Source: Zanthoxylum bungeanum
Taxonomy: Eukaryota > Streptophyta > Magnoliopsida > Sapindales > Rutaceae
Direction of reading: 5' to 3'
DNA length: 64,000 bases
Assembly: GCA_019454045.1 (NCBI GenBank)
Contig: SKCR01021435.1
Location: 1 to 64,000 of the forward strand
The position numbers were made by a program, and so were the translations under genes. Shown here one piece after another: positions 5,424-52,944 of the stretch (within the stretch, counting starts at the first letter, position 1; every line of letters starts with the position of its first letter). Below the pieces are notes generated by a model. The model was given only the letters and a program-made list of their open reading frames with translations, was not told the DNA's origin and searched no databases.

Positions 5424-5628
5424 TGATGAGCGGAAAATATATCAATATTTACCGCCCCTTTTACTTAATATTTTGTTTAGTTTATCGGGTTTGATGAACG
5501 TTTTGATGTGTTTTAGTTTATTTTGCAGATAAAATAATATTGGGACTCAATGAAATCATTTAGGACGAAATGTGGGTCAAATAAGGGCAAACATTGGACT
5601 TGACATATTAATTTTGGACATTGCAAAC
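5424..5628 (+). repeat. First 205 bases of element C's (second-type) 3' LTR, cut by E1
   Basis: It starts TGATGAGCGGAAAATATA after the polypurine tract and matches the U3 start of the E1 and E2 LTRs. It ends at caaac (5624-5628), the likely left target duplication of E1. The matching right half is not found next to E1's other end, where sequence has been deleted. Confidence 0.7.
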
Positions 5629-12668: not shown

Positions 12669-13139
12669 TCATTGATGAGACCGCGGTTCATTAGCTTGCG
12701 CTATAGCCCCGTTATTGTCACAATACAATGGAACGAGCTCAGCTACTAACGAAACTACTCCTAATCCAATTAGGAATTTACAGATCCAAACGGCCTCTTT
12801 TGCTGCTTTAGCTGCAGCAATGTACTCCACTTCTGTTGTTGAATCGGCAACAGTCTCTTGCTTGGAAGATTTCCAACTTACTGCTCTGTTGTTCAAACAA
12901 AATATGTACCCACATTGCGACTTACAGTCATCTTTATCGGTTTGGAAACTTTCATCGATAAACCCGGTTACCTCAAGTTCTCCATCTCCATAGATTAAGA
13001 AAGCATCCTTAGTTCGTCTAAGATACTTAAGGATATTCTTAACCGCCATCCAGTGACCATCACCTGGATCGGCCTGATAGTGACTACAAATGCTCAAAGC
13101 ATACGAGACATCAGGTCGCGTATATATCATGGCATACAT
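12669..13139 (-). pseudogene. Copia A RNase H domain (end of pol)
   Basis: A 156-codon open stretch beginning in the RT/RNase H connection (MYAMIYTRPDVSYAL) and continuing through KNILKYLRRTKDAFLIYG, TGFIDESFQTDKDD, SWKSSKQETVADSTTEVEYI and VPLYCDNNGAIAQANEPRSH, the standard copia RNase H order. It ends in a stop right after EPRSHQ, earlier than the family's usual C-terminus. The frame differs from the RT ORF upstream (break near 13140). RNase H removes genomic RNA during reverse transcription. Confidence 0.9.
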
Positions 13140-14340
13140 GATCGATCCGACTGCCGAGGTGAATGGGATCCCGACTCATGTTGTCTCTCTCATCTTGAGT
13201 TTTAGGACACATGTCCTTAGATAGAGTGACGCCATGTGACACTGGAAACGGCCCCCTCTTGGACTGATCCATGTTGAATCTCTTCAACACTTTGTCAACA
13301 TATGTACTCTGGGAGAGTCCAATCAGCTTTCTAGATCTATCCCGATAGATCTTTATTCTTATATTAAAGACTGCTTCTCCCAGATCCTTCATGGAGAATT
13401 TTAATGAAAGCCAAGCTTCCACCGATTGTAGCATGGGAATGTCATTGCCAATAAACAATAAATCATCAACATAAAGGACAATGAATGTCAGTGCGCTCCC
13501 ACTAACCTTCTTATATACACAAGGATCATCCTCGTTTTGAACGAAATCATATTCTTTTATGATCTCATCAAAACGTTGGTTCCAAGAACACGTTGGCTGC
13601 TTCAATCCATAAATGGATCGATTTAACTTGCAAACCTTGTCTGCATGTTTAGGTACGAAAAAATCGTCAGGCTGTTGCATATAAACATCCTCTAAAAGGT
13701 TTCCATTAAGGAAAGCGGTTTTGACGTTCATCTGCCATATCTCGTAATCGAAATATGCAGCAATAGCAAGCACAATCCGAATGGATTTAATCATGGCAAC
13801 GGGTGAAAAAGTTTCGTCGTAATCGACACCATATTGTTGATTATACCCTTTCGCTACAAGCCTAGCTTTGTACGTTTGAATGTTGCCATCCATGTCGGTC
13901 TTCCTCTTGAAGACCCATTTACAACCAATAGGCTTTACACCTTCTGGTGCATCAACCAGTGTCCAAACTTGGTTGGTGTACATGGAATCCATTTCGGACT
14001 TCATGCCATCTTGCCATAAATCGGAGTCGATACCTTATATTGCTTCCTCATACGTAGCTGTTTTATCTTCCTCAATAAGATTAATATCCACATGAGGTGA
14101 GATCAGAAACCCAGACCTCTCAAGTTGGTTTCTGACTCTATCCGATCTACGCGGTTCTTGTGTATTCGAAGATTGTGGTACAGTCTCATCCCTGATGAAC
14201 TGTTCATGTTCCATTAAGGATTCTGTTCCAGGAGCAGTATCACTCCGATTTTCATCGAGTTCTACTTTCCTCCCACTTACCACTGCATTTAGGAATTCCT
14301 TCTCAAGGAAAACCGAATGTAGAGCAACAAATACTTTGTT
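13111..14340 (-). pseudogene. Copia A reverse transcriptase with preceding spacer
   Basis: The main frame (14004-13111, 297 codons) holds a complete copia RT: WTLVDAPEGVKPIGCKWVFK, YKARLVAKGYNQQYGVDY, ETFSPVA, the first palm block, IYGLKQPTCSWN, and YVDD at residues 178-181. The first palm block reads QMNVKTAFLNG where the family has QMDVKTAFLNG, so the first catalytic Asp (residue 93) is Asn, a G-to-A change on the coding strand. Upstream, 14283-14035 is the integrase-RT spacer (SGRKVELDENR, RRSDRVRN), separated by a stop near 14034 that replaces a Gln codon in the family consensus. The frame breaks near 13140. It is closest to copia elements with this 'DPCVYKKVSGSA' RT type. Confidence 0.92.
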
Positions 14341-15140
14341 CTATTGTGGGTGATAGAAGTAATATCCTTTGGTTACCTTAGGATATCCTACAAATAGGCA
14401 TTTATCTGATTTAGGTTCAAGTTTGGTACCTTCCAAATGTTTGACGTATGCCCAGCATCCCCAAATCTTCAGGAATGAGAAACCCGGTTTCTTTCCTATC
14501 CATATTTCATACGGAGTCCGTTCAACAGAATTTGACGGAACCTTATTCAAAATCAGTATTGTACTGTTCAATGCATATCCCAAGAAGAAAATAGGTAGCT
14601 CTGTGCGACTCATCATCGACCTTACCATGTCTAATAAAGTTCAGTTTCTCTGTTCGGACACACCGTTCAATTGAGGTGTTCCGGGAGGAGTCCAATGTGA
14701 AAGAATACCATATTCTTTCAAGTAATCAATAAACTCATTGCTTAAGTATTTGCCACCACTGTCCGATAGTAATGATTTAATACTTTCGCCGGTCTGTTTT
14801 TCTATTTCGTGTCGAAATTCTTTGAATTTCTCAAAGGTTTCCGACTTGTGTCTCATAAGATACACATAGCCATAACGCGATGCATCATCCGTAAAGGTTA
14901 CGAAGTATTCATATCCACCTTTAGCCTGGCTAGACATGGGTCCACATACGTTACTGTGAACGAGGGCTAACAGTTCGGTAGCACATACACTTTTACTGCT
15001 AAAAGATGTTTTAGGCATTTTTCATAATAAACAAGATTCGCAGACGTCATATGAATTTGGATCAAATCCGTCCAAGTATCCACTCTTCGAAAGTGTGGAT
15101 ATACGAGTCTTGTTAATATGTCCTAGACGACAATGCCACA
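14341..15140 (-). pseudogene. Copia A integrase
   Basis: It spans the end of the GAG-pre-integrase zinc module (MWHCRLGHINKTRI... YDVCESC) and the catalytic core: KGGYEYFVTFTDDASRYGYV, SLLSDSGGKYLS (second Asp present) and the GVSEQRN block (Glu present), then PYEIWIGKKPGFSFLKIWGC and KCLFVGYP. The first catalytic Asp is replaced by Asn (VHSNVCGP where the family has HSDVCGP). In-frame stops occur at about 15019, 14638 and 14341. Two of them sit where the family has Arg (CGA to TGA) and Gln (CAG to TAG). Integrase would insert the cDNA into the chromosome; this copy cannot. Confidence 0.9.
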
Positions 15141-15823
15141 TATAAGTTTCATCTTTGTTACTTAGTTTAAGCCTTTTGTTTGTTACATTATATGTTTGAG
15201 ATAGATTTATATTCAAAATATAAAGACCATTATCTACATCAGCACTGCATATCTCCATATCATTTTTATACATAAAACACCTAATGTTTCTAAAAACAAA
15301 AGTATAGCCACATTGGGCCAATAAAGATACAGATAAACTATTCCTAGTCAAACAAGGTACATAATAACAGTCTGAAAGATTAAGTACATGCCGCGAGGAC
15401 AGTTCCAAAATATAATTCCCAACGGCCAAAACAGCGACTCGAGTCCCATTTCCAATGCGGAGGTCAATCTCTCCTGAGGCCAGTCTCTTACTAATCTGCA
15501 GATCCTGCACATCAGTACATATATAAGTACCACAACCAGAATCAAAAATCCAATTTTTAAAACTAGAAGTAGACATGTTTATTTCTATAACAAACATACC
15601 CGAAGCCGGTGCCTTGCCCGCTTTGATTTCCTTCATGTGCGCCTTGTACTCGCAGCAGTCATGCTTCCAGTGACCCCGCTTGCCGCACTGTAGACATACA
15701 TCTTGGGATTTGTCCTTACCCTTCCCAGAAGATTTTGACGATTTGGCCTTGCCCTTCTTTTTCTTCTTCTTCTTCACACCTCCAGTTGCCTTCGGCCAAG
15801 CCTTGGGAGACTGAGATGTTGAA
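15141..15823 (-). pseudogene. Copia A gag C-terminus (CCHC knuckle) and protease
   Basis: It begins with a Lys/Ser-rich stretch, then the CCHC zinc knuckle CLQCGKRGHWKHDC (about residues 29-42 of the 251-codon frame ending at 15022). The aspartic protease follows, with DSGCG at the active site (NWIFDSGCGTYICTDVQDL), LRIGNGTRVAVLAVG and the LSLSDCYYVP-like block. The knuckle binds genomic RNA in the particle and the protease matures Gag-Pol. The frame is open through this region. Copia B cuts gag at 15823, between the knuckle-side linker and KGKKHKVHFA at 27844. Confidence 0.92.
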
Positions 15824-15828
15824 GCAAA

Positions 15829-17817
15829 TGTTGGGTTTCTACAATAGTCCCGGGATCAATTCAAGCAAGAAATCATGTACGAATACAACAAAGAAGCATG
15901 GCGGAATCATACTTACATTGATCGGCTTTTGCGATGCGAGGAACAACAAAAATTCTTCAAGCTTTTCCTTCCTAGAGCTCACGGCAAAGCCCTCCCTTTT
16001 GTGCTCCATTTGTGTCTCCAAGCTCCAAGCTTTAACAATGAGATTCCATGCCCACGGGTGAGTTTCCCTATCACCTTCGCAAGACCCCGAATGTGTGCTA
16101 GCACTCTTGAAATTTTGACACAAAACTTCACATTTTCCTTGTTGTGGTTCACGGTAAAATGAAAGACAAGAAGGAAAAATAGGCCATTGGCCGATAGGTG
16201 TAAGAGAGAAGAAGAAGAAATGTGTTAGTTGGTTTGTATTTCCAAAAACAAATAAAGATATACCAAATTCAAAATTTGGTAAATGGCATTAAGCCATCCA
16301 ACCACTACCATCAATCATAAGTGACAAGTTGTCACATCACTTAAAGTGACTAGACATCACATCAATCAAAGTGACTAATGATTTGACGCTTGATGTGACT
16401 TATGGGCCGCACTTGAATTCGAAATGCGAGTGCGTCCGCAAACACTCCCGGGCTCGGGTTCACTAATTCCGAATTAACGAATTTTCCGTTGCGACGTAAT
16501 TAAATCAAATTCAATTAAATAATTTTGCCTAGTAAAATTACTATTCACGTCGCTAGCGAATTAATTCTAAATTAACTCGTTCACCCGAATTAAAATCTAA
16601 TTTTAATTCCGCGTCGAAATCCAATTTCGTATAATATATCGAATATATTATTTTATCGATTAATTCCAAATTAATCGTTCTCTCTCTTTAAGTAATATTT
16701 TATCCCAGATAAAATATCTCTGTAATTAATCCCAGATTAATTTTCTCTCTCTTATAATTAATACCAAATTAGTAAAGTACGAGTCATACGTCATCAGTGA
16801 ATCTTTGGGAAGCGACCCATGAGATCCCCGGATATGTTGGCAGTAAATCCGGTTGTCGGACTATCCAAACACGTACATACCTAGTACTATGCTTTTACCG
16901 ATTTACATGACATGGTTGGCTTCTAGCAAAGCACCGTGCCTACCCAATTCTCCAGAAATATTCTTATTGGAATATGTGATATATATCAGGCGTAGTATAC
17001 GTAGTATTGCGTATTATGATACAGTATCGGATGTCACGTGCAAGGCCTGAGGCTGGAATTGTGTCTGCCCCGTATGAAGCACATATCGGATCTCTGGTAA
17101 CTAGTCTCTATAATCGGATAATCATGACCTAGTCATATTATCCCGATGACTACAGTAATAAGAGCACCAGTTCCGTATCCTACGTGATCATCATCTCCAC
17201 TATGACTGGAGTGATTCTTCCGTCTTGACATCACACCCAATATACTACGATTCTCAATATACCCAGAAGAGGCGTACACAGAACCTATTAAAGCCCTGGA
17301 CGACCAAAACCAAATGATATTGATTTTCGCAAGTATTAGCGGTGCAAGTCACAGGTTAAGACCAAATACACCTACCCTGATTCGGACTTCCATAGACACA
17401 TAGTCATACTACCAATGGAATTCCGAGGGGTCTATCCAGAGCGAAGCTATTCCCGTACCATCGGTAAACACAACCTCCTATTACACTTGCATGAGTATCC
17501 TATACATAAATATATAAGAACTATGCCGTTATGTTCCCACAATGCGCACAAGTGTAATACTAGTCTTTTACGCATTATCGATTTCCAATCTCGATAATAC
17601 TCCGACTAGGGATATTTATTGATTAAACCTTTGTGGATTGATAATGTCTCATATCATCCCAATCCGGAACTAATCATATGGACCTTCTATCATTTATATA
17701 TCTTGGTAATCTAATTACAAATGATAAAAGGGCAATTTCCTTTGTCACATAGTTAATTTGTACAACAACACCATGATTTGTACAAAAAGTGATGCTATGG
17801 GTCATAATTGTCCAAAA
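15829..17817 (-). repeat. Copia B 3' LTR (1989 bp)
   Basis: On the plus strand it starts TGTTGGGTTTCTACAATAG and ends at 17817, where the usual TCCAACA is mutated to TCCAAAA. It contains the hairpin chain (about 16450-16775). Several frames across 15839-16162 are shadows of this non-coding sequence. It pairs with 23762-27838. Confidence 0.95.
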
Positions 17818-32629: not shown

Positions 32630-33221
32630 TTCATATGACTCACCCAACTGCTGTCTGAGATGGGGTAAATGATGCCAGTATCCAACCATTTGATGATTTT
32701 TTTCTTCACGAACTCTTTCATGATTGGATTCAGTCTCCGTTGATGCTCCACTGTGTGTTTGTACTCGTCATTAATCAGGATTTTGTGCATGCAAAATGAT
32801 GGAATAATACCTCAAATGTTATAATCCAGCCAATGGCTCTTTTTTGTTCTCGTAACACTCTCAGTAACTTTTCTTCCAGCTCCAATGTTAGCGAAGAAGA
32901 AATAATAATAGGTAATTCAGAAGAGTTTCCAAGATATGCATACCTGAGATGACTCAGCAATAGCTTCAGCTCCAGCAGCGGTGGTTCTTCGATTGAGTGC
33001 TTGATTCGATCTTTCTTCGGAAGTTCCAGACTTTCCACTGGTGGTGTCGATTTGAATCGGAATGGCTTGTCAAGATAGTTGATACATTCCAGAAGTTCAA
33101 CATCTAGCTCGCTGTTAGTCATGTTGGTGATGCAAGCTTCAAGTTTAACTGTGGGAATTGTATCAGTATCCTGAATGATACTATCAACAACATCAATTCT
33201 GAAACATTATTCCTATTGGTC
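32630..33221 (-). pseudogene. E1 pol: protease-RT spacer and RT N-terminus
   Basis: In element order: an acidic spacer (ELDVELLECINYLDKPFRF), PPLLELKLLLSHLRYAYLGN, LPIIISSSLTLELEEKLLRV and LREQKRAIGW, the Athila-type run-up to RT. MHKILINDEYKHTVEHQRRL, NPIMKEFVKKKIIKWLDTGI and IYPISDSSWVSH follow. Copia A interrupts just after this, and RT continues at 10503. A frame change separates the two open stretches near 32780. The sequence order is close to the family consensus, but stops prevent translation. Confidence 0.88.
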
Positions 33222-33960
33222 CTACACTTTCATAGTTTGTTCTCCTTTTTGCACATCAATCACAGTTTGACCTGTAGCCAAGAATGGTCTCCTAGGGATG
33301 ATAGGAACATCTTTGTCTTCTTCCATGTCAAGGATAATGAAATCTGCTGGGAGAATGAGTTTGTCGACTTTGACCAGCACACCTTCAACTACACCACTCG
33401 GAAATACGAGCATTCGATCAGTAAGTTACAGAGAGACTGAAGTAGGTATTGCTTCTCTAATTTACAGTTTCCTGTAAATAGACTAAGGCATCAAATTAAC
33501 ACTTTCACCTAAATCACATAAAGCTTTACCGATATAATGTTCTCCAATGGTGTAAGGAACAGTGAAACTGCCAGGATCTTTCAACTTCAGGGGAAGTTTC
33601 TTCTGAATGATGGTGTTGTATTCTTTCATCAATGCTACTGTCTCGTAATATCCCAATCTATGTTTTCGTGAAAGAATGTATTTCATGAATTTGACATAGT
33701 TGGACATTTCTTCCAAGGCTTCTACAAATGGGATATTGATATGCCGCTTTTTGAACACCTCCAAGAATTGACCCAACTGTTTATCCAATTTGTTTTTCTG
33801 GAGTCGTCGAGGAAAATGTGGAGTTAAAGTGAATCTTTCTTGATCTTTTTCCTTTGCTTCTTTTTCCTCCACCCGTGGAACTGCATCTTTTGGAACTTTT
33901 TCAATGGTTTCTTTCATTCCAACATCTTTGTTGATTTCAGTGCCACTTTTCAAGGTAATG
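33222..33960 (-). pseudogene. E1 gag-protease junction and retropepsin
   Basis: The open stretch 33953-33483 has a charged linker (EKEAKEKDQERF), FPRRLQKNKLDKQLGQFLEV, FKKRHINIPFVEALE, KLPLKLKDPGSFTVPYTIGE and the protease block KALCDLGESVNLMP. The active site is DLGES where E2 has DLGAS. After a stop, 33413-33222 continues with LVFPSGVVEGVLVKVDKLIL, PIIPRRPFLATGQTVIDVQK. The canonical IIxGRPFLATG has Gly changed to Arg. Non-functional. Confidence 0.88.
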
Positions 33961-35280
33961 GCTTGACATTGCTCCTTCCATCAGTTTCTTGGATTTGGTT
34001 CTGTGTTACTGGGAAAATTCCTGGTGGTCTGTAACTCTGAGCATTGGCCAGTTTTCCAATTTGATTCTCCAGTGCTTTGATAGAAGTAGATTGGCTATGA
34101 ATCATAGCATCGTAATTTTTAACTGAGCCAGCACTTCTGCAATTCCTCGTTCTTTTCATGCTCATGGCCTTTGTTCTGTTGTTGTTGGAATCCGGGTGGT
34201 GGATAGTTCCTTGGCCTTGTATTGTTGCTCCAAGCAAAATTAGGATGATTCCTCCACCCTGGGTTGTAGGTGTTGGAATATGGGTTGTTCCTCTGTCTAT
34301 TGAAATTGTTGGCATAATTCACCATTTCTTCAAGTTGGTTTGTCTCTGGTGCTTCTCCATATGGTGAACTTATGGATCCAGTGTTACCTTGCATGCTGAG
34401 AGTTTCCATGAATTTGCATATTTGATCTAGCTTGGCATTCACTGCAGTGTTGGCTCCAACTTCATAAATTCCAGCAATTTGTTGAATCAAGCTATTTCTG
34501 TTGGCCACAAGGAGTTGTTGTTGGCCATTTCTTCAATTAATTCCCAGGCTTGATCTTTTCCTTTTTCCATTAAAACTCCTCCAGCAGCAGCATCAATTGT
34601 GGTTCTCATTATTCCAGAAATTCCATTGTAAAAGGTTTGGACTTATAGCCATTTTACAATCTAATGGTGAGGACATTTCCAGAGTAAATCTTTGTACCTT
34701 TCCTAAGCTTCGTAAAGGGATTCTGAATCTTTTTGTAAAAAATATGTGATGTCATTCCTCAACTTTACAGTTCTAGTTGATGGAAAGTACTTTACAAGAA
34801 ATTTTGTAGCTAGAGTGTTCCAAGTTGTGATGGAACCTGCTGGTAGTGAATGTAGCCAAGCTTTTGCTCTGTCTTTCAAGGAATATGGAAAAACTCACAG
34901 TCTCATTGCTTCTTCTGATGCTCTGTTGTAGTTGAAAGTGCCACAAACTTCCAGGAAGTTGCAGATATGGGCATTAGGATCTTCAGTTGCATTCCCCCAA
35001 AAACTGAACTGATTGTTGAATCATCTGAATGCATGTTTTGATGTCACACGCATTTGCTGGTAAGGGAGGAAGTATAATACATGAAATGAGGCCGTCAACC
35101 ACTGGAATGGTTCTGTCTCGAATAGGAATTGGTGGTGCAACCTCCAAAGGTTCAGGTTCCATGTTGACAATTGATTCTTGGCCTTCTCGCCTTTCCCTTC
35201 TCAACTGTCTGATGGTTCTTTCAATTTCTGGGTCAAGCGGTCGGAGTTCAAAGCTTCTGGTTCATCTCAAAAAATGTCTC
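33954..35280 (-). pseudogene. E1 gag
   Basis: Athila-type gag in several frames: LRPLDPEIERTIRQLRRERR, the IPIRDRTIPVVDGLISCIIL block, NFLEVCGTFNYNRA (frame-shifted), YSLKDRAKAWLHSLPAGS, then AWELIEEMANNNSLWPTE, AGIYEVGANTAVNAKLDQI, NNPYSNTYNPGWRNHPNFAW and ALENQIGKLANAQSYRPPG. Frameshifts occur near 34990, 34640 and 34510 and there are a few stops. No ATG in frame with the N-terminus is convincing. Gag builds the particle and binds RNA. E2 gag at 48740-50090 is collinear. Confidence 0.88.
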
Positions 35281-35378
35281 AGAACCTAAAATAAGTGAAC
35301 ACAAAAATAATAAGTAAAAAGAATATTAGATACAAGTAAAGGTATCTAACCTCAAAACTAATAGTGTAAGATAAATAA

Positions 35379-35396
35379 GTCCCCGACAACGACGTA
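35379..35396 (-). promoter_or_regulatory. E1 primer binding site (tRNA-Asp type, degraded)
   Basis: On the minus strand TACGTCGTTGTCGGGGAC, a mutated form of the TGGCACCGTTGCCGGGGAC site in E2 (50219-50201). It follows the 5' LTR end by about seven bases. Asp-tRNA priming is characteristic of Athila elements. Confidence 0.75.
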
Positions 35397-35403
35397 AAAA
35401 AAT

Positions 35404-36800
35404 TGACTGGCGTAATCACACGTGTATAACGCAAGCGCACGTATCGTTCAAGTAGTACAAAAAGTATCGATCCCATGATGACTTAAAACCTTTTGTTATC
35501 AATTTATGAAGTTAAATGTTTACAATTATATAATGGATTGATTGTTTGATTGGGCAATGACTTTAAAACTTAAAACAAGTAAATAAAATTGCTTGAAAGT
35601 AGATTGAAGAAAATTCAAATTTATAAAACTATCTAGGGTTGTGAATCCTTCCAATATCTTTTTAAAAGATGAAATGGTTATTTTAGGTTTGTATAATATA
35701 TTGGTTTATTAACCTGGAACACGAAATTATGTAAAAGCCTATTCCGATGGTCAAATACAAATACCCAATATAACCCAATTAATCATATTCATATGTCAAC
35801 CAAGTTATCTGAATTCATTAAGATTAAGTTCCAATTATGGCTAGCCCTGCCCGACAGGTATATTCTTATCCTGTAAGGAAATCTATTAAAGGGTTATCTA
35901 TCCTCATGAAGATCATGGGCTATTGAGTCTACGGTCTTTAACCTAAAATCTTTTTTCCAAGTTCATTTTAAGTTTACCAGTTCAATTTTATTAATGGCCA
36001 GTTAATAAAAAGCATTCAGATTAAGGCTCAATAAATAAACCTTTATATTACCCAAACTGTAATTTAACCCCTTATAAACTGGTGGTATTAGATTTCATCA
36101 CAACCCCAAATAACTGGCTTAGTTACGACACATATTTACGGGTAGTAAAAACTTAAATAAAAGAAAAGACATAAAGTAAATTACTAGAAATTAAATACTG
36201 AAAAGTAAATTACTGAAAAGTAAATTGCTGAAAGGTAAATTGCTGAAAGTAAATAAAGTAAAAGTAAATTACTGAAAGTAAATAAAGTAAAAGTAAATTG
36301 CTGAAAGTAAATAAAGTAAAAGTACAATAAAAGAAAATGTTGGGGGTTAGAGGATCCACTTTTATTACTACTATTTTAGATATCTCCCTTAATATAATAT
36401 ATTAACTTTGCGTGATAATTACCAACCAGCAATATAAGCGGTATCCTGATTAAGTCAAATTGATAATTAATTACCAACCGACCAATCAGGCGGTATCCAT
36501 GCTTAGTCAGGTTAAAACCAATTTATAATTAATTACCAACCGACCAATATGGCGGTATCCTAGTTAAGTCAGATTTTAAATAGTTATTATATTATAATTA
36601 GGGGAGATTAATCTAAATAGCAATAATAAAAGCTTTACCTTTTACCCCAGTAAGGGGGAATTACCTCCTCAGTGCGTAAAAGTAAAAACTGAAAAAAGTA
36701 AAGAAAGGAAAGTATTGTGCGTAAAAGTAAATTATGGAAAGTAAAAACTGAAAAGTAAAGAAAAGAGCGAAAGGGGAAATTCATTACTGAAAGCTGTAAA
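35404..36800 (-). repeat. E1 5' LTR, truncated (about 1.4 of 2.06 kb)
   Basis: It begins on the plus strand TGACTGGCGTAATCACACG and follows 5629-6985 in order, including the AAAGTAAATTGCTG tandem repeats (about 36175-36320, more units than the 3' LTR) and three GGCGGTATCC units (about 36425-36560). It stops at GCTGTAAAT near 36800, losing about 660 bp including the TATA box and U3 start, and abuts inverted LTR sequence of element C. Confidence 0.85.
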
Positions 36801-36916
36801 TATGTGTCGTAACTAAGCCAGTTATCTGTGGTGGTTCTTCAATTTACTTTATGTCTTTTATTTTATTTATGTTTTTACTACCCGTAAATATGTGTCGTAA
36901 CTAAGCCAGTTATCTG
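36796..36916. repeat. 33-bp direct repeat at the inverted LTR junction
   Basis: Bases 36796-36828 (GTAAATATGTGTCG...) are repeated exactly at 36884-36916, an 88-base offset. The first copy bridges the E1 LTR (minus) and the element C LTR (plus), as expected for templated filler at a repaired break. Confidence 0.8.
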
Positions 36917-42328: not shown

Positions 42329-43124
42329 GGTACTGACCAGCATAAACACACACGTATAACGCAAGCGCACGTATTGTTCAAGTAGTATAAAAATATCGAT
42401 CCCACGAGGACTTAATTCCTACTGTTGTTATTAATTATTGATACTATTTATTTACAGGTATCTGATTATAGGGAGAAGAGAATGATTGTTTGATTGGTTG
42501 GTTGAATGTGGTTTTCCTTAATTAAAATAAATAAAATAAACAAAAGAAAATACTAAGGAAAATAACAAAAGACTCAAAGATCTAGGGTTGTGAATCATTC
42601 TAATATCTTTTAACAGATGATGTGATTATTTTATGTTTGTGTAATAAATCAGTTTACTAACCTGGAACAAGAAATTATGCAAAAGCCTATGTCGATGGTC
42701 AGACGCAAATACCCAGTTTAACCCAATTGAACCATATGTCTATGTCAACCAAATTATCTGGATTCATTAAGTTTAAGTTCCAATTATGGCTACCCACGCC
42801 TGACAGGTATATGTCTATCCTGTAAGGAAATCTATTAAAGGGTTATCTATCCTCAAGGAAGATCGTGGGCTATTAAGTCTAAGGCTGAAACCTAAAATTC
42901 CTTTGTCAAGTTTATTTTAGATTTACCACATCAATCTTATTGGTGAACAGACAACAAGAAACATTAAACTTACGACTAAATAAGTAAATCTTTAAATTAC
43001 CCTAACTATAAAATAACCCCTTATAAACCGGTGATATTGGATTTCATCACAACCCCAGATAACTGGCTTAGTTACGACATATATTTACGGGTAGTAAAAA
43101 CTTAAATAAAATAAAAGACATAAA

Positions 43125-43365
43125 GTAAAATGCTGAAAAGTAAATGACGGAAAGTAAATGCAGAAATTAAATACTGAAAATTAAATGCTAAAAAGTAAAT
43201 CTGAAAGTAAATTACTGAAAAGTAAATGCTGAAAGTAAATTGCTGAAAAGTAAATGCTGAAAGTAATTGATGAAAAGTAAATGCTGAAAGTAAATTACTG
43301 AAAAGTAAATTGCTGAAAAGTAAATGCTGAAAGTAATTGCTGAAAAGTAAATGAAGTAAAAGTAC
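43125..43365 (-). repeat. Minisatellite of AAAAGTAAATGCTG units in E2 3' LTR
   Basis: A run of roughly 13-15 base units (GTAAATGCTGAAA, with GTAAATTACTG and GTAAATTGCTG variants). Corresponding arrays are at 51015-51185 (5' LTR), 6370-6500 and 36175-36320 (E1), with different unit numbers. Confidence 0.85.
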
Positions 43366-43919
43366 AATAAAAGAAATGCTGAGGTAAAATGATCCACTTT
43401 TATTACTTCTATTTTAGATATCTCCTTTAATATAATATATTAACTTTGCATGATAATTACCAACCAGCCATATAGGCGGTATCCAGATTAAGTCAAATTA
43501 ATAATTAATTACCAACCGACCAATCAGGCGGTATCCAGTTTAGTCATGTTAAAACCAATTTAAAAAATTACCAACCGACCAATATGGCGGTATCCTCGTT
43601 AAGTCAGGTTTTAACTAGTTTATATATTATAATTAAGGAGATTAATCTAAATATTAGTAATAAAAGTTTTACCTTTTACCCTAGCAAAGGGGAGTTACCT
43701 CCACATTACTGAAAAGTAAAAACTGAATATTAAAGAAAGAAAAATATTGTGCGTAAAAGTAAATTGCGGAAAGTAAAAACTGAAAAGTAAAGAAAAGAAA
43801 GTGCGAAAGCGGAAATTAATTACTGAAAGCTGTAAATAAACAAACAAGATACAATCTTCTTAGTATTCTTAAGGAATTCCTTAGAAGAAAGTATGAATTT
43901 TACAAATGAAATGGCTTGG

Positions 43920-43928
43920 TATTTATAG
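43920..43928 (-). promoter_or_regulatory. TATA box of E2 3' LTR
   Basis: CTATAAATA on the minus strand. The same site in the 5' LTR is 51754-51746, where it would drive the element transcript. Confidence 0.7.
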
Positions 43929-44532
43929 GCAAAATTTTGCCTCCATCAAATTCTCCACCAAATCCATTATTAATTTCTCCACTAATTACTCCACCAAATC
44001 CATTATTAATTGCTCCACTAATTGATTATCATGTTTGGTGATGATTTGATAATTTTATTATTTATTTATTAATTTATTTTTTTTGCTTTGAAAATGACTT
44101 TAATAATTACACATCACACACTTCTGGATGGTTCATCAATTTCGGTCCTGAAATCTTCCGAATTCGAAAATATTTTGTCTTTCCAAGTTTTAGATCTTTG
44201 AGTCTTCTTTAATTTGGCCCTTGAATCAGCTCAATCCGATATCGGAGTAAACAGTTATGCCCAAAATACGACAGATGTGCAAACCTGGAATTTTGAAAAC
44301 TGCACTTTGTCAAAAACGCCCTTTCAAGTTTCAAATATCCAAAATTAAAATATCAAGTCCAATAATTGCCCTTATTTTACCCATATTTCGTCCTAAATGA
44401 TTTCATTAAGAACCGATATTATTTTATCTCTAAAATAAACTAAAACACATCAAAACGTTCATCAAACCCGAGAAACTAAACAAAATATTAAGTTAAAGGG
44501 GCGGTAAATATTGATATATTTTCCGCTCATTA

Positions 44533-45853
44533 CACCCCCAAACCTAACATTTTTCTAGTCCTCGAGCAAAACAACAATAAAAAAAATTAAACTAAGCCAC
44601 TTTCCTAGGGATCACGATTGCATTTAGCGTATGCAACAAGCCTTTAAACCCCTAGGTGTCCCTAGTGGACGAGTTGTAGTCTCGTGAGGGTTTACAACAA
44701 TGATACCCATAAATATTTTACAAAAGTAAAAAGGTAGTGAAACTAATGCACACAAAAGCAAAAAGACAAGCGAAAAAAGAATAAAGAAGTTAGTGACTAA
44801 TCAGGTGAAACTTCTACTCCAAGTTACTAGTTGTTTTCTTTCTTTCTAAATTACTGAATAAGTAAATTCTCCAATTATATTTATCATTCTCCATATACAC
44901 AGCCAACAAAATATTAATCAACTCATTTTTGCCCACAACAGTCATAACTGTAGTTGATAAGAGAGTAATATTTTTGTCCTAAAGTTTTATCAGAATTCAC
45001 ACTTTTTTTCCAGCAATGAAATAATTTTTCTGATTTTTCTGAATTTTTTCTTTGATTTTTATCTATTTTTTTTATTTATATACAATACCTTCTGTCTATA
45101 TAGTGAGTGTTGGGTCGGTGACTCCCAAACCAGTTGGCTTTAGGGCACCAGGTGTTAAGATACCCATACGGACTTAATTACTCAGACTTTAGATATATAT
45201 ATATTTTTGCAACATCTTTGATCCATGTAGCGAGCTTTGGGCCAGTGACTCCCAAACCAGTTGGTTTTAGGACACTAGGTGTTAAAACACCCTTACAGAC
45301 TTAATAACTCGGATCTCAGATGTTTTTTTTTTTACTCCATCACTTTCTGAGATGCTTCCTCCATTTAAACTAGAGCACTGAATATTACAAATTTTTCAAT
45401 TATAGCTTATGTCTGTATGTTTCCATGTATGTTGATAATACCTGTCAACTGAGCATATGAAGATCCATTTTAGTCCGTTTTATGGAGAATTTACAAATTA
45501 AATAATTTAAAATGAAATAAACAAAAATTAACTTGTTTCGAAATAGGTTTGAGATACGTCTCAGGAGTGGAAACTCCTTACTCAGCTATCTCTTACCAAT
45601 TTCACCTTTTTTTTAGTCAAAATAAAAACACAAAAACGCAAAGTATTTTTGTAATTTTTGAAAAATTTTCAAATTTTTTGTATTTTTTGAAAAAATTTGA
45701 ACTAAAAATAAAAACAACACACAACTAAAAAAAAGATACTAATCAACTAATTCCCTCCCCCAAACCTAAATGAGACATTGTCCCCCATGTCTTAAACAGT
45801 AGAAAAAGAGTTTAGAAGATAGTATCTGGTTAGCTGAAATTCTACACGAAAAG
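44533..45853 (-). other. E2 3' UTR: conserved motifs, hairpin repeats, polypurine tract
   Basis: In element order after the LOG stop: GGGGGACAATGTC and GTTTGGGGGAGGG (about 45790-45752), two hairpin-bearing direct repeats (about 45305-45215 and 45180-45090), the TTGCATACGC/AATCGTGATCCC block and the CCACTAGGG...CCTCACGAGAC block (about 44700-44605). The polypurine tract GGTTTGGGGGTG abuts the LTR at 44533. No coding is supported. Confidence 0.65.
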
Positions 45854-46507
45854 TTAAAGGTTAAGATCCAGATTAATCTGACGCCTCTTACCACGATCGT
45901 CCTCGGACCAATTTATCTTTGAAAGGATAGGGTCAACTTGTGGTTCATAAGCTAAGAGTTGGTCAATTAGATCCGGAGCAGTTCTGGCAGTAAAGAGTAG
46001 TTCTTTCAAAGGTTTTGACACGAACCCATTTTTTCGAGCATCATCAAGAAACACACAAAGAAAATCATAAAATCCTTCAATGTTGTACCGTCCAAGGGGT
46101 TTCTGGTGTATGTTCAGGTTCGCCCAAGATAACACTGTAAAAATTTCCTCCAATGTACCCAAGCCACCTGGCAAAGCAATAAAAGCATCAGCATGGTTAA
46201 TCATTTCTACCAGTCGTTCAGACATACCTGGCACGATCAGTTCCTCTCCGTTTGATGATCCAATAAGATTTTCCTATGCCAAGGGTTTTGGGATGATTCC
46301 TAAAACGTTACTACCTCATTCCTGTACGGCCTTTGAAACGATCCCCATTAGTCCAAGATTGCCTCCGCCATATACTAAGTGCATATTTCTTGCAGCTAAG
46401 ACTCGACCCAATTATTGTGCTGCCTCTACGTATTGTGGTTTAGTACCAACACTACTACCGCAAAATACATAGATGTTTTCAACTCGTCTTCTTGAAGTGG
46501 CTTCCAT
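45854..46507 (-). pseudogene. LOG-type cytokinin riboside 5'-monophosphate phosphoribohydrolase, full-length retrocopy inside E2
   Basis: An ATG at 46507 opens a 217-codon frame that stays in phase to the stop at 45854, the usual length of plant LOG proteins and without introns. Landmarks: YVFCGSSVGTKPQY (residues 13-26), LVYGGGNLGLMG (44-55), VLGIIPKPL (68-76), MSERLVEM (95-102, with the conserved Arg), [16 protein letters not shown] (106-121, the PGGxGTxxE catalytic signature), [19 protein letters not shown] and ILSKINW. The enzyme releases active cytokinin base from its riboside monophosphate. Stops at codons 32, 64 and 78 (TAA, TGA, TAG) block expression of the whole protein; each could arise by a C-to-T change in CAA, CGA and CAG. 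It is sense with the element, directly after the cysteine-rich ORF. The E1 copy at 9015-9450 is homologous. Confidence 0.92.
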
Positions 46508-46757
46508 GTTTTACTCTGGATGTCTTCAAAAGTGCAATGATGAGTTGAATTTATAATACCTGAAAAGGGTGAGTAAAATAATAGCACTAGTACCTGTCAA
46601 ATGACAATTATTAGTTAAACAGTAAAATGAATCGTGATAATCAAAAAGGTATGGATCCTGTCGGAGAAAATAAAAGAAAACAAAAAAAAAATTACAATTA
46701 TCAGGAAAAGACAAAGAGATATAAAATGTACAAGAAAAGTAGCGGGTTGATTGACGT

Positions 46758-47274
46758 CTATGTGTCAGGGACAAGCTTCCCATCCAATTTTCTTATAAAT
46801 TGGCAAACAGGGTCTTTTTGAGTCAGATTCCCGAGACTTAACAGTTGTCTTTCCTTTTGGAATTGTGCGTATAACACACGAATCTCATGATACACACATC
46901 CACTAGGATGCGTCTCAAGAGTTTTAGATATGTCATCCAAAGACTGCTTAATCAACCCATCCCTAATGAAGTTAATCTTATCTTCGCGGTTATCAGACAC
47001 CATTCCTAAAGAATGACAACGAGTATTACAAAAGATGGGAGCACATTTATAACAAACACACATTCTTTTGGCTCTTCTCTTTTTAGCATAAGTGCTCTTT
47101 CCTAAGCCAGGCAGATGTGAAATAAAAGAGTCAGAAGACTCACCTGCCAATCGGACCCGTGCTTCAATAATCCAACGAATTTCAGTAGGAATACCTTTGA
47201 TCATCAGTAACCTCATCCGTTCTAAACGAGCTTTGTAAACTTTCATCAGAGATTTTTGCGAGAACTTCTTCCAT
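46758..47274 (-). CDS. Extra ORF of E2: basic, cysteine-rich protein of unknown function
   Basis: The open frame 47246-46758 encodes 162 residues. An ATG at 47274 with a good context would start in another frame, so a frameshift near the N-terminus is likely. Residues 55-61 form a basic patch (KKRRAKR) immediately followed by cysteines at 63, 65, 68, 73 and 77. Downstream is an acidic/hydrophobic stretch (NREDKINFIRDGL). The arrangement of a serine-tyrosine-alanine lead-in, Arg/Lys patch, zinc-binding-like cysteines and a following short helix recalls the small nucleic-acid-binding proteins of carlaviruses (Pfam Carla_C4). That is recognition by eye, not a search result. A T-rich tract ending in ACAG (about 47300-47284) could be a splice acceptor upstream. 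It may instead be an element-specific accessory protein. Confidence 0.5.
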
Positions 47275-47412
47275 CGTGAAAGGACTTAATCTGTAAAAAC
47301 TAAACACACAAAATTAAATCACACCAAATCACAATATATACACAAATTGCATGGGCTGCCTCCCTGCGAGCGCTAAGTTTAAAGTCGTCAGCTAGACGTG
47401 ACTTCTCGAGCG

Positions 47413-48290
47413 TTAAGCTGGATCTGAAAGTGTGACACTTTCTTTTTGTCGCTCAAATGATTCTCCCCAGTAGTGCTTAACACGCTTGTTTTTAACCTTG
47501 AAATTTTTGTTGGATTCAGAATCATGTATCTCAATGGCTCTGTCTGGTAAAACCTTGGTGATCATAAATGGACCTGACCACCGTGATTTTGGCTTCCATG
47601 GGAAGAATTTCACCATTGATTTGTTTAACAGTAACTTATGCCCTGGTTCCAGTTGTATGCGCACTAACTTCTCATCATGTCTTTTCCTAGCCTTTTCCTT
47701 GTACAATTTGGCATCCTTAAAAGGCTGTATGTGAAATTCCTCTAATTTGTTGAGTTGGTGGAAATTTTTCTCTTCTGTTGCTTGTAGTGCAAGAATAGGC
47801 TTCTTCAGTACGCAATGCGTTTTATCTTCAGGCTCCACAGGTAATTGACATGCTTTAAGTTTGTCAGTAGATCTTTGTCTTTCATCAGAGTTCTGAATGG
47901 TACTATGTATCACATCAAGTCTGAAACATTCCTCTTTCTCGTCATTCGGCAAATTCATGGCTTTAAAAACATTAAATGTTACTTCTTGGTCCTGTACCCT
48001 CATGGTTAGTTCTCCTTTTTGTACATCAATAATGGTTCGACCTGTAGCCAAGAATGGTCTCCCGAGGATGATTGGCACGTCTGCGTCTTCCTCCATATCA
48101 ATGCCAATAAAATCTACTGGGAAAATGAATTTTTCAACCTTGACCAGCACATCCTCAACTACGCCTCTTGGAAATATGAGCACTCTATCAACAAGTTGTA
48201 GTGGGCATTGTTTCTCCAATCTGTAATTTCCTGAAAATAGAAAAAGACATCAAGTTAACACTAGCACCTAAATCACACAGAGCCTTACCG
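47413..48290 (-). pseudogene. E2 protease fused in frame to integrase C-terminus
   Basis: The protease active site KALCDLGASVNLM lies near 48282-48245. After a frame break near 48215, a 268-codon open frame runs to 47413. Residues 11-60 are the rest of protease (RVLIFPRGVVEDVLVKVEKF, PIILGRPFLATG at 49-60) and about 80-150 are a post-protease spacer. From about 151 the text is the integrase C-terminal domain (FHQLNKLEEF, DAKLYKEKARKRHDEKL, and KSRWSGPFMITKVLP at 211-225, a GPF/Y-type module, then FKVKNKRVKHYWG). RT, RNase H and the integrase core that normally lie between are deleted without breaking the frame. Confidence 0.88.
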
Positions 48291-50090
48291 AAGTCATGTT
48301 ATCCTATGGTGCAAGGAACAGTGAAACTGCCGGGATCTTTCAACTTTGGAGGAAGTTTTCTCTGAATGATGGCGCTGCATTCTTCTGATAACGCTACTGT
48401 CTCATAATCTCCCAATCTCCGCTTTCGTGAAAGAATGTCTTTCATAAATTTGGCATAGCTGGGAATTTGTTCCAACACTTCTGCAAATGGAATGTTGATA
48501 TGCAGCTTTTTGAACACCTCCAAGAATCGAGCAAATTGCTTGTCCAGTTTATTCTTCTGAAGACGCTGAGGAAAAGGTGGAGGTGGAGTGATCTGTTCTT
48601 TTTCCTTTGCTTCTTTTTCCTCCATCTGTTGCTTAGTTTCTTTTGGAATATCTTCAATTGTTGTTGCCTTGATTCCAACATCTTTGTTGATTTCAGTACC
48701 GCTTTTTAACATGATGGAATGACATTGTTCCTTTCCCATATTCCTTGGATTTGGCTCTGTGTTGTTAGGAAGGTTACCTGGCGGTCTGTAACTCTGAGCA
48801 TTGGCCAGTTGTCCAATTTGATTCTCCAGTGCTTTAATAGAAGCATATTGACTTTGAATTAATGTTGCTTAGAATTGAAACATAGCATCATATCTTACCG
48901 CTTGAGAGTCATGTTTTTCTTCTATCTTTTTCAAATGGGTCAACACTTCTGTTATTCCTGATTCATTTGCCTGCTCATGGCCTTTGTTCAGTTGTTGGAA
49001 TCCGGGTGGTGGATTGTTCATTTGCCCTAAATTGTTGCTCTATGCGAGATTGAGATGATTCCTCCACCCTGGGTTGTAGGTGTTTGAATATGGATTGTTC
49101 CCCTGTCTGTTGAAATTGTTGACATAATTCACCGTTTCTTTATATTGGTTGAAAGATTCTGACTCAGGTGCTCCTCCAAATAGTGAACTTGTGGATCCAC
49201 CATTAACTTTCATGTTAAGAGTTTCCAGATTTTTGCAAATCACATCCAGTTTGGAATTCAGTGTTGTGTTGGCTCCAACTTCATAAATTCCTGCAATTCT
49301 TTGAATCATGCTCCTTTCTGTTGGCCACAAGGAGTTTTTATTGGCCATTTCTTCAATTAAGTCCCAGGCTTGGTCTTCTTCTTTTGCCATTAAAGCTCCT
49401 CCAGCAGCAGCAGCATCAATTGTGGTTCTCATTATTCCAAAAGTCCATTGTAGAAGGTTTGGACTTGTAGCCATTTTGTGATCTCATGATGAGGACATTT
49501 TCGGAGTAAATCTTTGAATATTTCCCAAGCTTCGCAAAGGGATTCTGAATCTTGATGCACGAAGGATGTGATGTCATTCCTTAACTTTTCAGTTCTGGCT
49601 GGTGGAAAGTACTTTGCAAGGAATTTGGTGGCTAGAGTGTTCCAAGTTGTGATGGAACCTGCTGGTCACGAATGTAGCCAAGCTTTAGCTCTGTCTTTCA
49701 GGGAATATGGAAAAACCCGCAGTCTCATTGCTTCTTCAACTGCTCGGTTGTAATTGAAAGTACCGCAAACTTCCAGGAAGTTGCTGATGTGGGAATTATG
49801 ATCTTCAGTTGCATTTCCCCCAAACTGTACTGACTGCTGAATCATCTGGATGCATGTTTTGATGTCACATGCATTTGCTGGTAAAGGAGGAAGTACAATA
49901 CAGGAAATGAGTCTGTCAACCACCGGAATGGTTCTGTCTCGAATGGGAATCGGTGGTGTAATGTTCAAAGGTTCAGGTTCCATCTTAATGATTGCTTATT
50001 GGCCCTCTCGCCTTTCCATTCTCAACTGTCTGATGGTTCTTTCAATTTCTGGGTCAAGCGGTCGGAGTTCAAAGCTTCTAGTTCATCTCA
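48291..50090 (-). pseudogene. E2 gag and gag-protease linker
   Basis: Athila-type gag collinear with E1: PLDPEIERTIRQLR near 50060, MEPEPLNITPPIPIRDRTIP (49983 on), NFLEVCGTFNYNRAVEEAM, YSLKDRAKAWLHS (stop at 49666), then 49474-49040 with AWDLIEEMANKNSLWPTE, AGIYEVGANTTLNSKLDVIC and NNPYSNTYNPGWRNHLNL, a QIGQLANAQSYRPPG block near 48800, and the linker FPQRLQKNKLDKQFARFLEV to KLPPKLKDPGSFTVPCTIG ending at 48299. Breaks lie near 49666, 49460, 48960 and 48740. No convincing start codon is in frame with the N-terminal block. Confidence 0.88.
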
Positions 50091-50200
50091 TTGGAGTTTC
50101 TGAGAACCTGAAACACAAGAAAACAAAAACAATAAGTAAAAAGAAAATTAGATACAAGTAAAAGTATCTAACCTCTAAAATAATAGTGAAAGATAATTAA

Positions 50201-50219
50201 GTCCCCGGCAACGGTGCCA
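50201..50219 (-). promoter_or_regulatory. E2 primer binding site (tRNA-Asp type)
   Basis: On the minus strand TGGCACCGTTGCCGGGGAC, one change from the TGGCGCCGTTGCCGGGGA site typical of Athila elements, six bases after the LTR end at 50226. Confidence 0.92.
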
Positions 50220-50225
50220 AAAACT

Positions 50226-52368
50226 TAACCGGCGTAAACACACACGTATAACGCAAGCGCACGTATCATTCAAGTAGTATAAAAATATTGATCCCACGAG
50301 GAATTAATTCCTACTGTTGTTATTAATTATTGATATTATTTATTTACAGGTATCTAATTATAGGGAGAAAAGAATGATTGTTTGATTGGTTGGGTGAATG
50401 TGGTTTTCCTTAATTAAAATAAATAAAATAAACAAAAGAAAATACTAAGGAAAATAACAAAAGACTCAAAGATCTAGGGTTGTGAATCATTCTAATATCT
50501 TTTAAAAGATGAAGTGATTATTTTATGTTGGTGTAATAAATCAGTTTACTAACCTGGAACACGAAATTATGCAAAAGCCTCTGTCGATGGTCAGACACAA
50601 TTACCCAGTATAACCCAATTGAACCATATGTCTATGTCAACCAAATTATCTGGATTCATTAAGTTTAAGTTCCAATTATGGCTACCCCCGCCCGACAGGT
50701 ATATGTCTATCCTGTAAGGAAATCTATTAAAGGGTTATCTATCCTCAAGGAAGATCGTGGGCTATTAAGTCTAAGGCTGAAACCTAAAATTCCTTTGTCA
50801 AGTTTATTTTAGATTTACCACATCAATCTTATTGGTGATAAGACAACAAGAACCATTAAGCTTAAGACTAAATAAGTAAACCTTTAAATTACCCAAACTA
50901 TAAAATAACCCCTTATAAACCGGTGATATTGGATTTCATCACAACCCCAGATAACTGGCTTAGTTACAACATATATTTACGGATAGTAAAAACTTAAATA
51001 AAATAAAAGACATAAAGTAAATGCTGAAAAGTAAATTGCTGAAAAGTAAATGCTGAAATTAAATACTGAAAATTAAATGCTGAAAAGTAAATGTTGAAAG
51101 TAAATTACTGAAAAGTAAATGCTGAAAAGTAAATTGCTGAAAAGTAAATGCTGAAAAGTAAATTTCTGAAAAGTAAATGAAGTAAAAGTACAATAAAAGA
51201 AAATGCTGAGGTAAAAGGATCCACTTTTATTACTTCTATTTTAGATATCTCCCTTAATATAATATATTAACTTTGCATGATAATTACCAACCAGCCATAT
51301 AGGCGGTATCCAGATTAAGTCAAATTAATAATAATTACAACCGATCAATCAGGCGGTATCCAGTTTAGTCAGGTTAAAACCAATTTAAATAATTACCAAC
51401 CGACCAATATGGCGGTATCCTCGTTAAGTCAGGTTTTAACTAGTTTATATATTATAATTAAAGGAGATTAATCTAAATATTAGTAATAAAAGTTTTACCT
51501 TTTACCCCAGCAAAGGGGAGTTACCTCCACATTACTGAAAAGTAAAAACTGAAAATTAAAGAAAGAAAAATATTGTGCGTAAAAGTAAATTGCGGAAAGT
51601 AAAAACTGAAAAGTAAAGAAAAGAAAGTGCGAAAGTGGAAATTAATTACTGAAAGCTGTAAATAAACAAACAATATACAATCTTCTTATTATTCTTAAGG
51701 AATTCCTTAGAAGAAAGTATGAATTTTACAAATGAAATGGCTTGGTATTTATAGGCAAAATTTTGCCTCCATCAAATTCTCCACCAAATCCATTATTAAT
51801 TTCTCCACTAATTACTCCACCAAATCTATTATTAATTGCTCCACTAATTTCTTATCATGTTTGGTGATTATTTGATAATTTTATTATTTATTTATTAATT
51901 TATTTTTTTTGCTTTGAAAATGATTGAAAATGACTTTAATAATTACACATCACACACTTCTGGATAGTTCATCAATTTTGGTCATGAAATCTCCAGAATT
52001 CGACAATAATATGTCTTTCAAAGTTGTATATCTTTGAGTCTTCTTTAATCTGGCACTTGAATCAGCTCAATCCGATATCAGAGTAAAAAGTTATGTCCAA
52101 AATACGACAGATGTGCAAAACTGGAATTTCCAACACTACACTTTGTCAAAATCGCCCTTTCAAGTTTCAAATATCCAAAATTAAAATATCAAGTCCAATA
52201 ATTACCCTTATTTTACCCATATTTCATCCTAAATGATTTCATTGAGACCCGATATTATTTTATCTGCAAAATAAACTAAAACACATCAAAACGTTCATCA
52301 AACCCGAGAAACTAAACAAAATATTAAGTTAAAGGGGCGGTAAATATTGATATATTTTCCGCTCATCA
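50226..52368 (-). repeat. E2 5' LTR (2143 bp)
   Basis: On the minus strand it starts TGATGAGCGGAAAATATATC at 52368 and ends at 50226. The TATA box is at 51754-51746, two CCACCAAATC-type units lie upstream of it (about 51780-51850), and three GGCGGTATCC units are at about 51300-51420. It is collinear with 42334-44532. Confidence 0.95.
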
Positions 52369-52944
52369 GGTACTCCCATTGGTGGTGGAACATGAACAGT
52401 AGATTCTGCGGCTCTCGGCTCTGGGCTTGGTGGCTGCGGCTAGCGGGTAACAAACTGGGCTAGAGCTGCTAGTGACTGTTGTATCTGCTGTAGGCCCGCA
52501 ACTACTGGGTCATTAGGCTGATCCACCATGGCAGCTCTACCTTCCCCACAACACTCTCATGAACAGACTCCACTCTCTGCCCTCTATCTGGCTCAGGGGG
52601 AGGTACTGCTGATCTCTGGTCCAAATCTAAACCTTGAAGCGCCCTTCACGCCAGGGTCTACTCCTGACTCTGGTTCTTCCCTTGGGTGGCATGGATATCT
52701 ATGAAAGTGAGAAAGAAAAGAGAACGATCAGCTACATGTATATGATTCACGATGAGACATAACTCGAGACAAGGTTACTAAAGTAAACAACCACTCATAT
52801 ATAGTAGTACCCCGGGTATACCACATATACAAGCCACTACTACTCTCTTATTGCAGTCACTAACTCCCTAGACTATGCTCTGATACCATTTTTGTAACAT
52901 CCCCAATACAGGAATGTTACTGGCAAGCAACAGATGCCACTGTC
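52369..52944 (-). mobile_element. Element D part 2: gag start, leader, primer site and LTR end
   Basis: Element D gag opens at ATG 52692 (MPPKGRTR... then a stop shortly after) and reaches E2 at 52374. The leader contains a primer site GCTCTGATACCA (52877-52888; TGGTATCAGAGC on the minus strand, tRNA-Met type, as in chromoviruses). Four bases further, TGTAACATCCCC at 52893 is the inner end of D's 5' LTR. Only 52 bases of that LTR precede copia E. Confidence 0.85.
52374..52692 (-). pseudogene. Element D gag N-terminus
   Basis: It starts MPPKGRTR followed by an Arg/Pro/Trp-rich stretch (SRPWREGRFK), then a stop at about codon 22. Further homology in another frame is rich in Pro/Glu/Gln (a VVAGLQQIQQSLAALAQFV stretch near 52490). 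It continues on the other side of E2 at 42328. Confidence 0.7.

Follow-up and report, generated by a model that had tools for sequence, protein, structure and literature searches.

A LOG-family protein carried by an Athila-like retrotransposon family of Zanthoxylum bungeanum

Introduction

How does a gene of the LOG family, whose plant members encode cytokinin riboside 5'-monophosphate phosphoribohydrolases, come to lie within a retrotransposon, and what could its protein do there? The question is raised by 64,000 nucleotides of Zanthoxylum bungeanum DNA (contig SKCR01021435.1, positions 1 to 64,000; the window), in which the minus strand from 46507 to 45854 holds a LOG frame of 217 codons without introns. 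An earlier note, made from the sequence alone, had taken this frame for a full-length, mRNA-derived, cytokinin-activating gene carried as cargo by an Athila-like element. The abstract of Steinbauerova 2011 reportedly describes two Athila-like elements with similarity to LOGL4. LOG has been recorded in Ty3/gypsy elements of two Citrus species and, when filtering was relaxed, of P. trichocarpa (PMC9289625, citing Steinbauerova 2011). The extra ORFs of plant LTR elements are described as evolving very fast or as having been acquired separately, and their function has been questioned (PMC6317226).

Results

The LOG frame lies inside a pol-deleted Athila-like element

Translated with X at its stops, the window frame matched PF03641 (E 3.7e-34), PF18306 (E 2.8e-16) and Arabidopsis LOG3 (2a33; E 2.4e-57), and these matches rule out that it is a chance frame; the plus strand of 45854-46507 contains 14 stops. 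The length and the lack of introns are as the earlier note had described, but the frame is not open, being interrupted by three stops; the insertion in the window has decayed. LOG and the surrounding element, E2, both lie on the minus strand, and the LTR pair, its boundaries and the ggtac duplication at each end were all verified, which upholds the description of LOG as sense to E2 and inside its LTRs. In sense orientation E2 consists of 5' LTR, primer-binding site, gag, a protease-integrase joint, an ORF resembling carlavirus nucleic-acid-binding proteins (the NABP-like ORF), LOG, 3' UTR and 3' LTR (Table 1). LOG had been placed between the pol remnant and the 3' UTR; this is correct on the 3' UTR side, but it is the NABP-like ORF that adjoins LOG on the other side, with the pol remnant farther upstream. 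Across 2124 aligned bases the LTRs are 96.1% identical (K2P 0.040), which corresponds, at usual plant rates, to 1.5-2.9 million years. The primer-binding site presumably fits tRNA-Asp; a tRNA search across the window found none.

Table 1. Coordinates, in the window, of E2, its parts and a second LOG copy.
Feature	Position	Strand	Remarks
Athila-like LTR element E2, pol-deleted	42334..52368	-	LTR pair, boundaries, target site duplication
Target site duplication ggtac, left	42329..42333	.	perfect
Target site duplication ggtac, right	52369..52373	.	perfect
E2 5' LTR	50226..52368	-	96.1% identical to 3' LTR
E2 primer-binding site TGGCACCGTTGCCGGGGA	50202..50219	-	
E2 leader and gag region	48250..50225	-	open piece 48868-48299; nucleotide match to gag region of L028
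Protease part fused to integrase C-terminal part	48249-47413	-	intervening pol missing
NABP-like accessory ORF	46758..47285	-	PF05515 E 2.3e-7, PF01623 E 6.1e-5
Splice-acceptor-like block upstream of LOG	46560..46576	-	AG kept in 21/21 aligned copies
LOG frame, 217 codons and stop	45854..46507	-	in-frame stops at codons 32, 64, 78
Leu99 of LOG frame	46211..46213	-	aligns with adenine-site Lys100 of CgLOG
LOG C-terminal basic and LxLxL (EAR-like) tail	45857..45889	-	
E2 3' UTR and purine-rich stretch ahead of 3' LTR	44533..45853	-	
E2 3' LTR	42334..44532	-	pairs with 5' LTR
Second LOG copy, 5'-truncated, one stop	9431-9015	-	adjoins related 3' LTR at about 5625-7691

Neither the open piece of gag nor the protease-integrase joint of E2 had a Pfam match of its own in the window. 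The gag region of L028, one of 20 LOG-bearing stretches fetched from elsewhere in the genome (see below), matches PF03732, and the same joint was found in other pol-less copies. Pieces of L017 and L028 contain RVT_1, RNase H, H2C2 and rve, with nothing further at E 0.01 and with neither aRH nor a chromodomain; reverse transcriptase and RNase H followed by integrase, without aRH and without a chromodomain, is the arrangement by which the Athila lineage is recognized (PMC6317226). Within the scanned pieces there was no match to the Athila ORF-1 domain PF03078, which is reported to occur in 16% of Athila elements.

Elsewhere in the window, Ty1/copia pieces with RVT_2 (E 1.6e-68) and gag_pre-integrs lie at 12669-15855 (minus), and a further element at 33216-36802 (minus) is ∼81% like E2 across gag and LTR parts; a nucleotide search found no LOG beside the latter. 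Matches to the Rfam family snoR71 (RF00097) lie antisense to the gag region, at 34659-34765 and 49481-49587 of the window (plus strand) and also at L011 7168-7273 and L028 187-293 (2 of the 5 loci scanned); either the Rfam family was drawn from this repeat or gag includes a snoRNA-like stretch.

LOG occupies a constant place in element copies across the genome

In the assembly (3.96 Gb, 51,709 contigs), a Pfam search yielded 47,331 candidates; 150 of them were scored, and all 150 were above cut-off. Codon patterns for PGGLGTLEE, for M-x-E/Q-R-L/F-x-E-M-I-N and for the LOG tail occurred at 18,366, 23,441 and 20,824 places, respectively, with none in the reversed control of each, and the NABP-like motif at 10,785 places; copy counts may include alleles, because pairs of contigs carry LOG at nearly the same coordinates. 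A host-type LOG codon motif was present at 17 places, representing 5 distinct sequences. A protein query aimed at host LOG, for which 150 of 43,531 candidates were scored, gave matches of 53-59% identity, and these were taken for element copies.

To place these copies in context, 20 stretches of up to 10 kb, drawn from the 150 best-scoring places, were mapped to E2 by nucleotide match. All 20 have an E2-type 3' UTR and LTR start downstream of LOG, as expected if LOG is element cargo, and LOG lies inside the LTRs, in sense, between pol and the 3' LTR, which is the arrangement of LOG-bearing gypsy elements. The body of the element varies: pol is present in three stretches (L017, L027, L028) and deleted as in the window in eight (L011, L012, L014, L016, L018, L019, L024, L026), three are incomplete or arranged in tandem (L015, L020, L021), and in six (L009, L010, L013, L022, L023, L025) nothing matches the pol remnant, the NABP-like ORF or, past the leader, E2 gag. 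These six short elements have a common region of their own, with a CX2CX4HX4C knuckle in four of them, that is perhaps a diverged part of gag. A complete or partial NABP-like ORF was found in 14 of the 20 stretches. Target duplications in five stretches were perfect (L010, L024), nearly so (L025) or not perfect (L011, L016), and eight measured LTR pairs differed by K2P 0.021-0.110. In pol-bearing, pol-less and shorter elements alike, the intronless LOG keeps a single position (pol, NABP-like ORF, LOG, 3' UTR).

Two structures are described here for themselves. In the short element L010, a 419-residue open frame with the CX2CX4HX4C knuckle (4696-5952, minus) had no Pfam match. In L020, units of LTR, NABP-like ORF and LOG are arranged in tandem ∼3.6 kb apart (2229-2882 and 5839-6496, LOG sense).

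The earlier note had allowed that LOG might be missing from other copies of the element, or might be an intron-bearing genomic fragment trapped by later insertions. LOG is present in other element copies of the genome, and a chromosomal gene fragment trapped later is ruled out by the constant place in 20 of 20 copies together with the absence of introns. The note had also proposed a search for stop-free copies, and uninterrupted LOG frames were indeed found elsewhere in the genome (21 of 42 rows compared, the rows having been picked by score). Such copies would be expected if some LOGs had become domesticated genes selected for the host, the others being by-products, but all 20 flanked copies lie within element sequence, the LTR pairs have the divergences given above, and the host LOG locus that we read is separate and intron-bearing; we therefore regard domestication as very improbable.

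The element LOG belongs to a clade distinct from canonical LOGs

At that host locus (one was read), the coding sequence is interrupted by five or more introns, one of them within PGGxGT, where the element LOG is continuous, in keeping with the earlier view that the element LOG derives from an mRNA. Among a canonical comparison set of 120 proteins (LOG1/LOG3-type proteins plus LOG8), the host locus scored best with proteins of Hibiscus, Theobroma and Gossypium. The best 120 of 7,751 relatives of the element LOG in a protein collection are 49-86% identical to it, the closest being 84-86%, and 80 of these 120 have a length of 216-217 aa. A gene tree, also suggested by the earlier note, was built from those relatives that measure 205-260 aa together with a sample of canonical proteins, and in it the element-type relatives form a clade apart from LOG3-type proteins and LOG8 (support 0.94) that includes members from Populus, Paulownia, Reevesia and Xanthoceras. 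A recent single capture in this genome is ruled out, since one clade spans several plants; the element context elsewhere is reported for Citrus and Populus only.

One relative, P0002, shares 45% identity with a LOG3 protein and passes TIGR00730 (160.9 bits, cut-off 96.35); both it (104.8 bits) and the canonical P0121 (132.4 bits) fall under the cut-off of 300 of NF058542, the NCBIfam equivalog model of the cytokinin enzyme. In viral contigs, five pattern matches to LOG included no relatives. Some genes annotated as LOG, for example the poplar LOGL10 entries, may be element genes.

The LOG protein is under purifying selection

Among 28 gap-free frames (the window's and 27 fetched ones, the latter chosen by LOG score, which favors intact copies), mean dN/dS was 0.21 for LOG and 0.69 and 1.27 for the other two frames. 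On internal branches omega was 0.19 (S/N 133/84), compared with 0.80 and 1.32 in the other frames (Fisher p 4e-15 and 8e-21), and on terminal branches it was 0.25, with 10 stops. The two LOGs of the window, which were chosen without a protein score, gave dN 0.085, dS 0.391 and omega 0.22. As a check on the selection bias, six new copies were picked by their 3' UTR and compared with the window copy. Omega among these seven was 0.56 (off-frame 0.62 and 0.90), and between the six and other lineages it was 0.14-0.53, with the minimum at the greatest distance. Changes private to single copies of the seven (22 synonymous, 52 nonsynonymous, 6 stop) were near neutral, and LOG was fully open in two of the six.

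We conclude that the LOG protein is under purifying selection during multiplication of the element. Because omega is low between lineages and private changes are near neutral, we read the pattern as selection that probably acted while elements replicated and faded after insertion. If LOG were instead a neutral passenger that spreads only with the element, many broken copies (the window's among them) and near-neutral changes in single insertions would be expected, as is the case, but the low internal-branch omega with its off-frame controls would not, nor would the 216-217 aa retained by 80 of the 120 listed relatives at 49-86% identity or the presence of LOG in the 6 of 20 elements that lack E2-type gag, the pol remnant and the NABP-like ORF. 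A neutral LOG is thus highly unlikely. The fact that LOG and the 3' UTR form a block common to the element classes seen could also mean that the region is kept as a cis-acting RNA or DNA signal, the protein being incidental. Such a signal would not be expected to show conservation that tracks synonymous versus nonsynonymous sites, nor tail residues that alternate between fixed and free, and we give this explanation next to no weight.

Adenine-site and prenyl-site residues are replaced in the element LOG

In bacterial LOGs, Arg99 and Glu122 are catalytic and Met96, Lys100 and Glu121 form the adenine site; Ala at these sites, one Ser excepted, nearly abolishes activity with AMP, and in a second bacterial LOG Lys156 is essential (PMC4979012, PMC5379747). 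All 28 element copies retain Met, Arg, Glu121, Glu122 and PGG-GT, and likewise PGGxGTxxE with the catalytic Arg and Glu, whereas the adenine-site Lys is replaced by Leu in all 28. The position of His97 is Ser in 27 copies, and that of Glu125, three residues past Glu122, is Ile in 24 and Thr in 4. Genome-wide, the element motif is found at 23,441 places with Leu/Phe and at 0 places with Lys. Lys, His, Glu and Arg are all kept in 120 of 120 canonical LOGs. In this genome, then, the catalytic Arg and Glu and the phosphate motif are kept and residues of the adenine and prenyl sites are replaced.

The 120 listed relatives are less uniform. The adenine-site Lys is kept in 10, of which 7 are in the tree and branch first in the clade. 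The catalytic Arg is kept in 107 and missing in 13 (Gln in 10 of these), in proteins that are mostly otherwise complete, and Glu122 is kept in 116 and missing in 4.

An alternative is that the element LOG has remained an ordinary activator of cytokinin, with more active cytokinin favoring dividing cells so that new insertions are inherited. The conserved catalytic residues, the purifying selection and the early-branching relatives that keep Lys would fit such a role. It is put in question by the change of Lys to Leu together with changes at the His97 and Glu125 positions in the same copies, by the near or complete loss of activity when this Lys is changed to Ala in two bacterial LOGs (PMC4979012, PMC5379747; a requirement that derives from bacterial enzymes with AMP and not from a plant LOG carrying Leu), by the lack of any Lys-form place in the genome, and by the missing Arg in 13 of the 120 relatives. 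With Leu in place of the adenine-site Lys in every one of the 28 copies and with no Lys form in the genome, the cytokinin-activating role proposed in the earlier note appears doubtful, and we consider an ordinary enzyme unlikely. That Arg, Glu and PGGxGTxxE are fully kept in this genome nevertheless argues for some catalysis.

Most relatives end in a basic cluster and an LxLxL motif

The window frame bears LxLxL near its C-terminal end. LxLxL motifs are short; one lies within the last 14 residues of 90 of the 120 listed relatives and of 0 of 120 canonical LOGs; a C-terminal basic cluster is present in 1 of 120 canonical LOGs. Among the 80 relatives of full length (216-217 aa), LxLxL is found in 73 and the basic cluster in 79, and most finish with K-K-x-R/K followed by L-x-L-x-L-x-L, in which the leucines are near-constant and the spacers variable. 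Of the 10 relatives that keep the adenine-site Lys, only 1 ends in LxLxL and 6 others end in the basic part only. The tail and pocket changes are thus not common to the whole clade, and the tail may have grown stepwise. LxLxL is an EAR consensus (PMC9956375), and pathogen effectors are reported to reach TOPLESS (PMC7446885, PMC8126959). The basic cluster may serve as a nuclear signal.

An NABP-like ORF and splice-acceptor-like blocks precede LOG

The NABP-like ORF of the window scores 31.4 bits against PF05515, and four other copies score 27.0-29.9 bits, all above the Pfam cut-off of 23; one of those four misses PF01623 (19.0, cut-off 20.9). The start region of the ORF differs in the window copy. 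Over 11 copies omega was 0.32, with off-frame values of 0.99 and 1.13. In the protein collection, 300 of 355 candidates are homologs, and the 120 listed include at least five named genera (Populus, Xanthoceras, Acer, Orobanche, Rhamnella); 75 pattern matches in viral_contigs included no relatives.

Located ∼50-75 bases upstream of the LOG start is a TTACTCACC(C)TTTTCAG-like block that has AG in 21 of 21 aligned copies, short elements included, and may be used as a splice acceptor. Ahead of the NABP-like start, a GTTTTTGCAG-like block is present in 10 of 10 sequences compared, four others without an anchor having been left out. The third gene of barley Bagy2 is expressed from a spliced message (PMC7264820).

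Discussion

We favor, with moderate confidence, the explanation that LOG was captured anciently and is now an accessory protein of a large Athila-like family, probably with a changed substrate and perhaps nuclear. On this explanation the capture would have been from a spliced message, and the message for LOG would be a spliced subgenomic transcript from the LTR, as for the env-like gene of Bagy2. The LOG product might have a nucleotide substrate that is not a cytokinin nucleotide, or might have lost cleavage altogether, and its tail would bring it into the nucleus; contact with TOPLESS-type corepressors there may favor element expression or tolerance.

More tentatively, an Athila-like lineage may have kept, in several eudicot orders, a two-gene module whose members, a carlavirus-type NABP and a LOG-fold protein remodeled into a nuclear, TOPLESS-contacting nucleotide sensor or enzyme, would together blunt host silencing or repression. 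This wider reading is a possibility that we hold at low confidence. If it is true, plant retrotransposons are carriers of effector-like genes, and the short derivatives that retain LOG would indicate that LOG helps its own carrier.

Against the background of fast-evolving extra ORFs, LOG is one that belongs to an enzyme family, is under measurable purifying selection and is present in a very large element family. Its exact pocket changes and short added motif make its function directly testable. At 217 and 182 aa, LOG and the NABP-like protein are both below the 250-codon limit of a survey of such ORFs (PMC6317226), so such modules may escape notice.

The closest known systems are the gypsy elements of Citrus and Populus, which likewise carry a LOG (YgdH) domain; for these PMC9289625 reports the presence of the domain, to which the present analysis adds copy number, selection, the pocket, the EAR-like tail, the NABP-like partner and short LOG-keeping elements. 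We found no printed work on selection, an altered pocket, a tail or an NABP-like partner of a retrotransposon LOG in a search of literature with few subscription journals. LOG in gypsy elements is already known; the selection, pocket, tail and NABP-like partner appear to be new.

Orchid Ty3/gypsy elements that encode an ALKBH5-like demethylase are similar in that a plant enzyme domain resides in a gypsy element (PMC9289625), but the enzyme is a different one, and its activity has been shown in orchid, whereas the element LOG is known from sequence. Athila and Bagy-2 elements have env-like ORFs in sense between pol and the 3' LTR, with a spliced message in Bagy2 (PMC7264820); neither LOG nor the NABP-like protein is env-like. 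With the carlavirus nucleic-acid-binding proteins (PF05515, PF01623), the ORF upstream of LOG has in common a score over the PF05515 cut-off, but it represents a 182-aa family that also occurs in named plants and has no relative among the matches in viral_contigs. Finally, the element LOG has the family, the PGGxGTxxE motif and the catalytic Arg and Glu in common with Arabidopsis LOG3 (2a33) and LOG8 (1ydh), and it differs from them in being intronless, in having the adenine-site Lys and the prenyl-site His and Glu replaced, and in its basic LxLxL tail.
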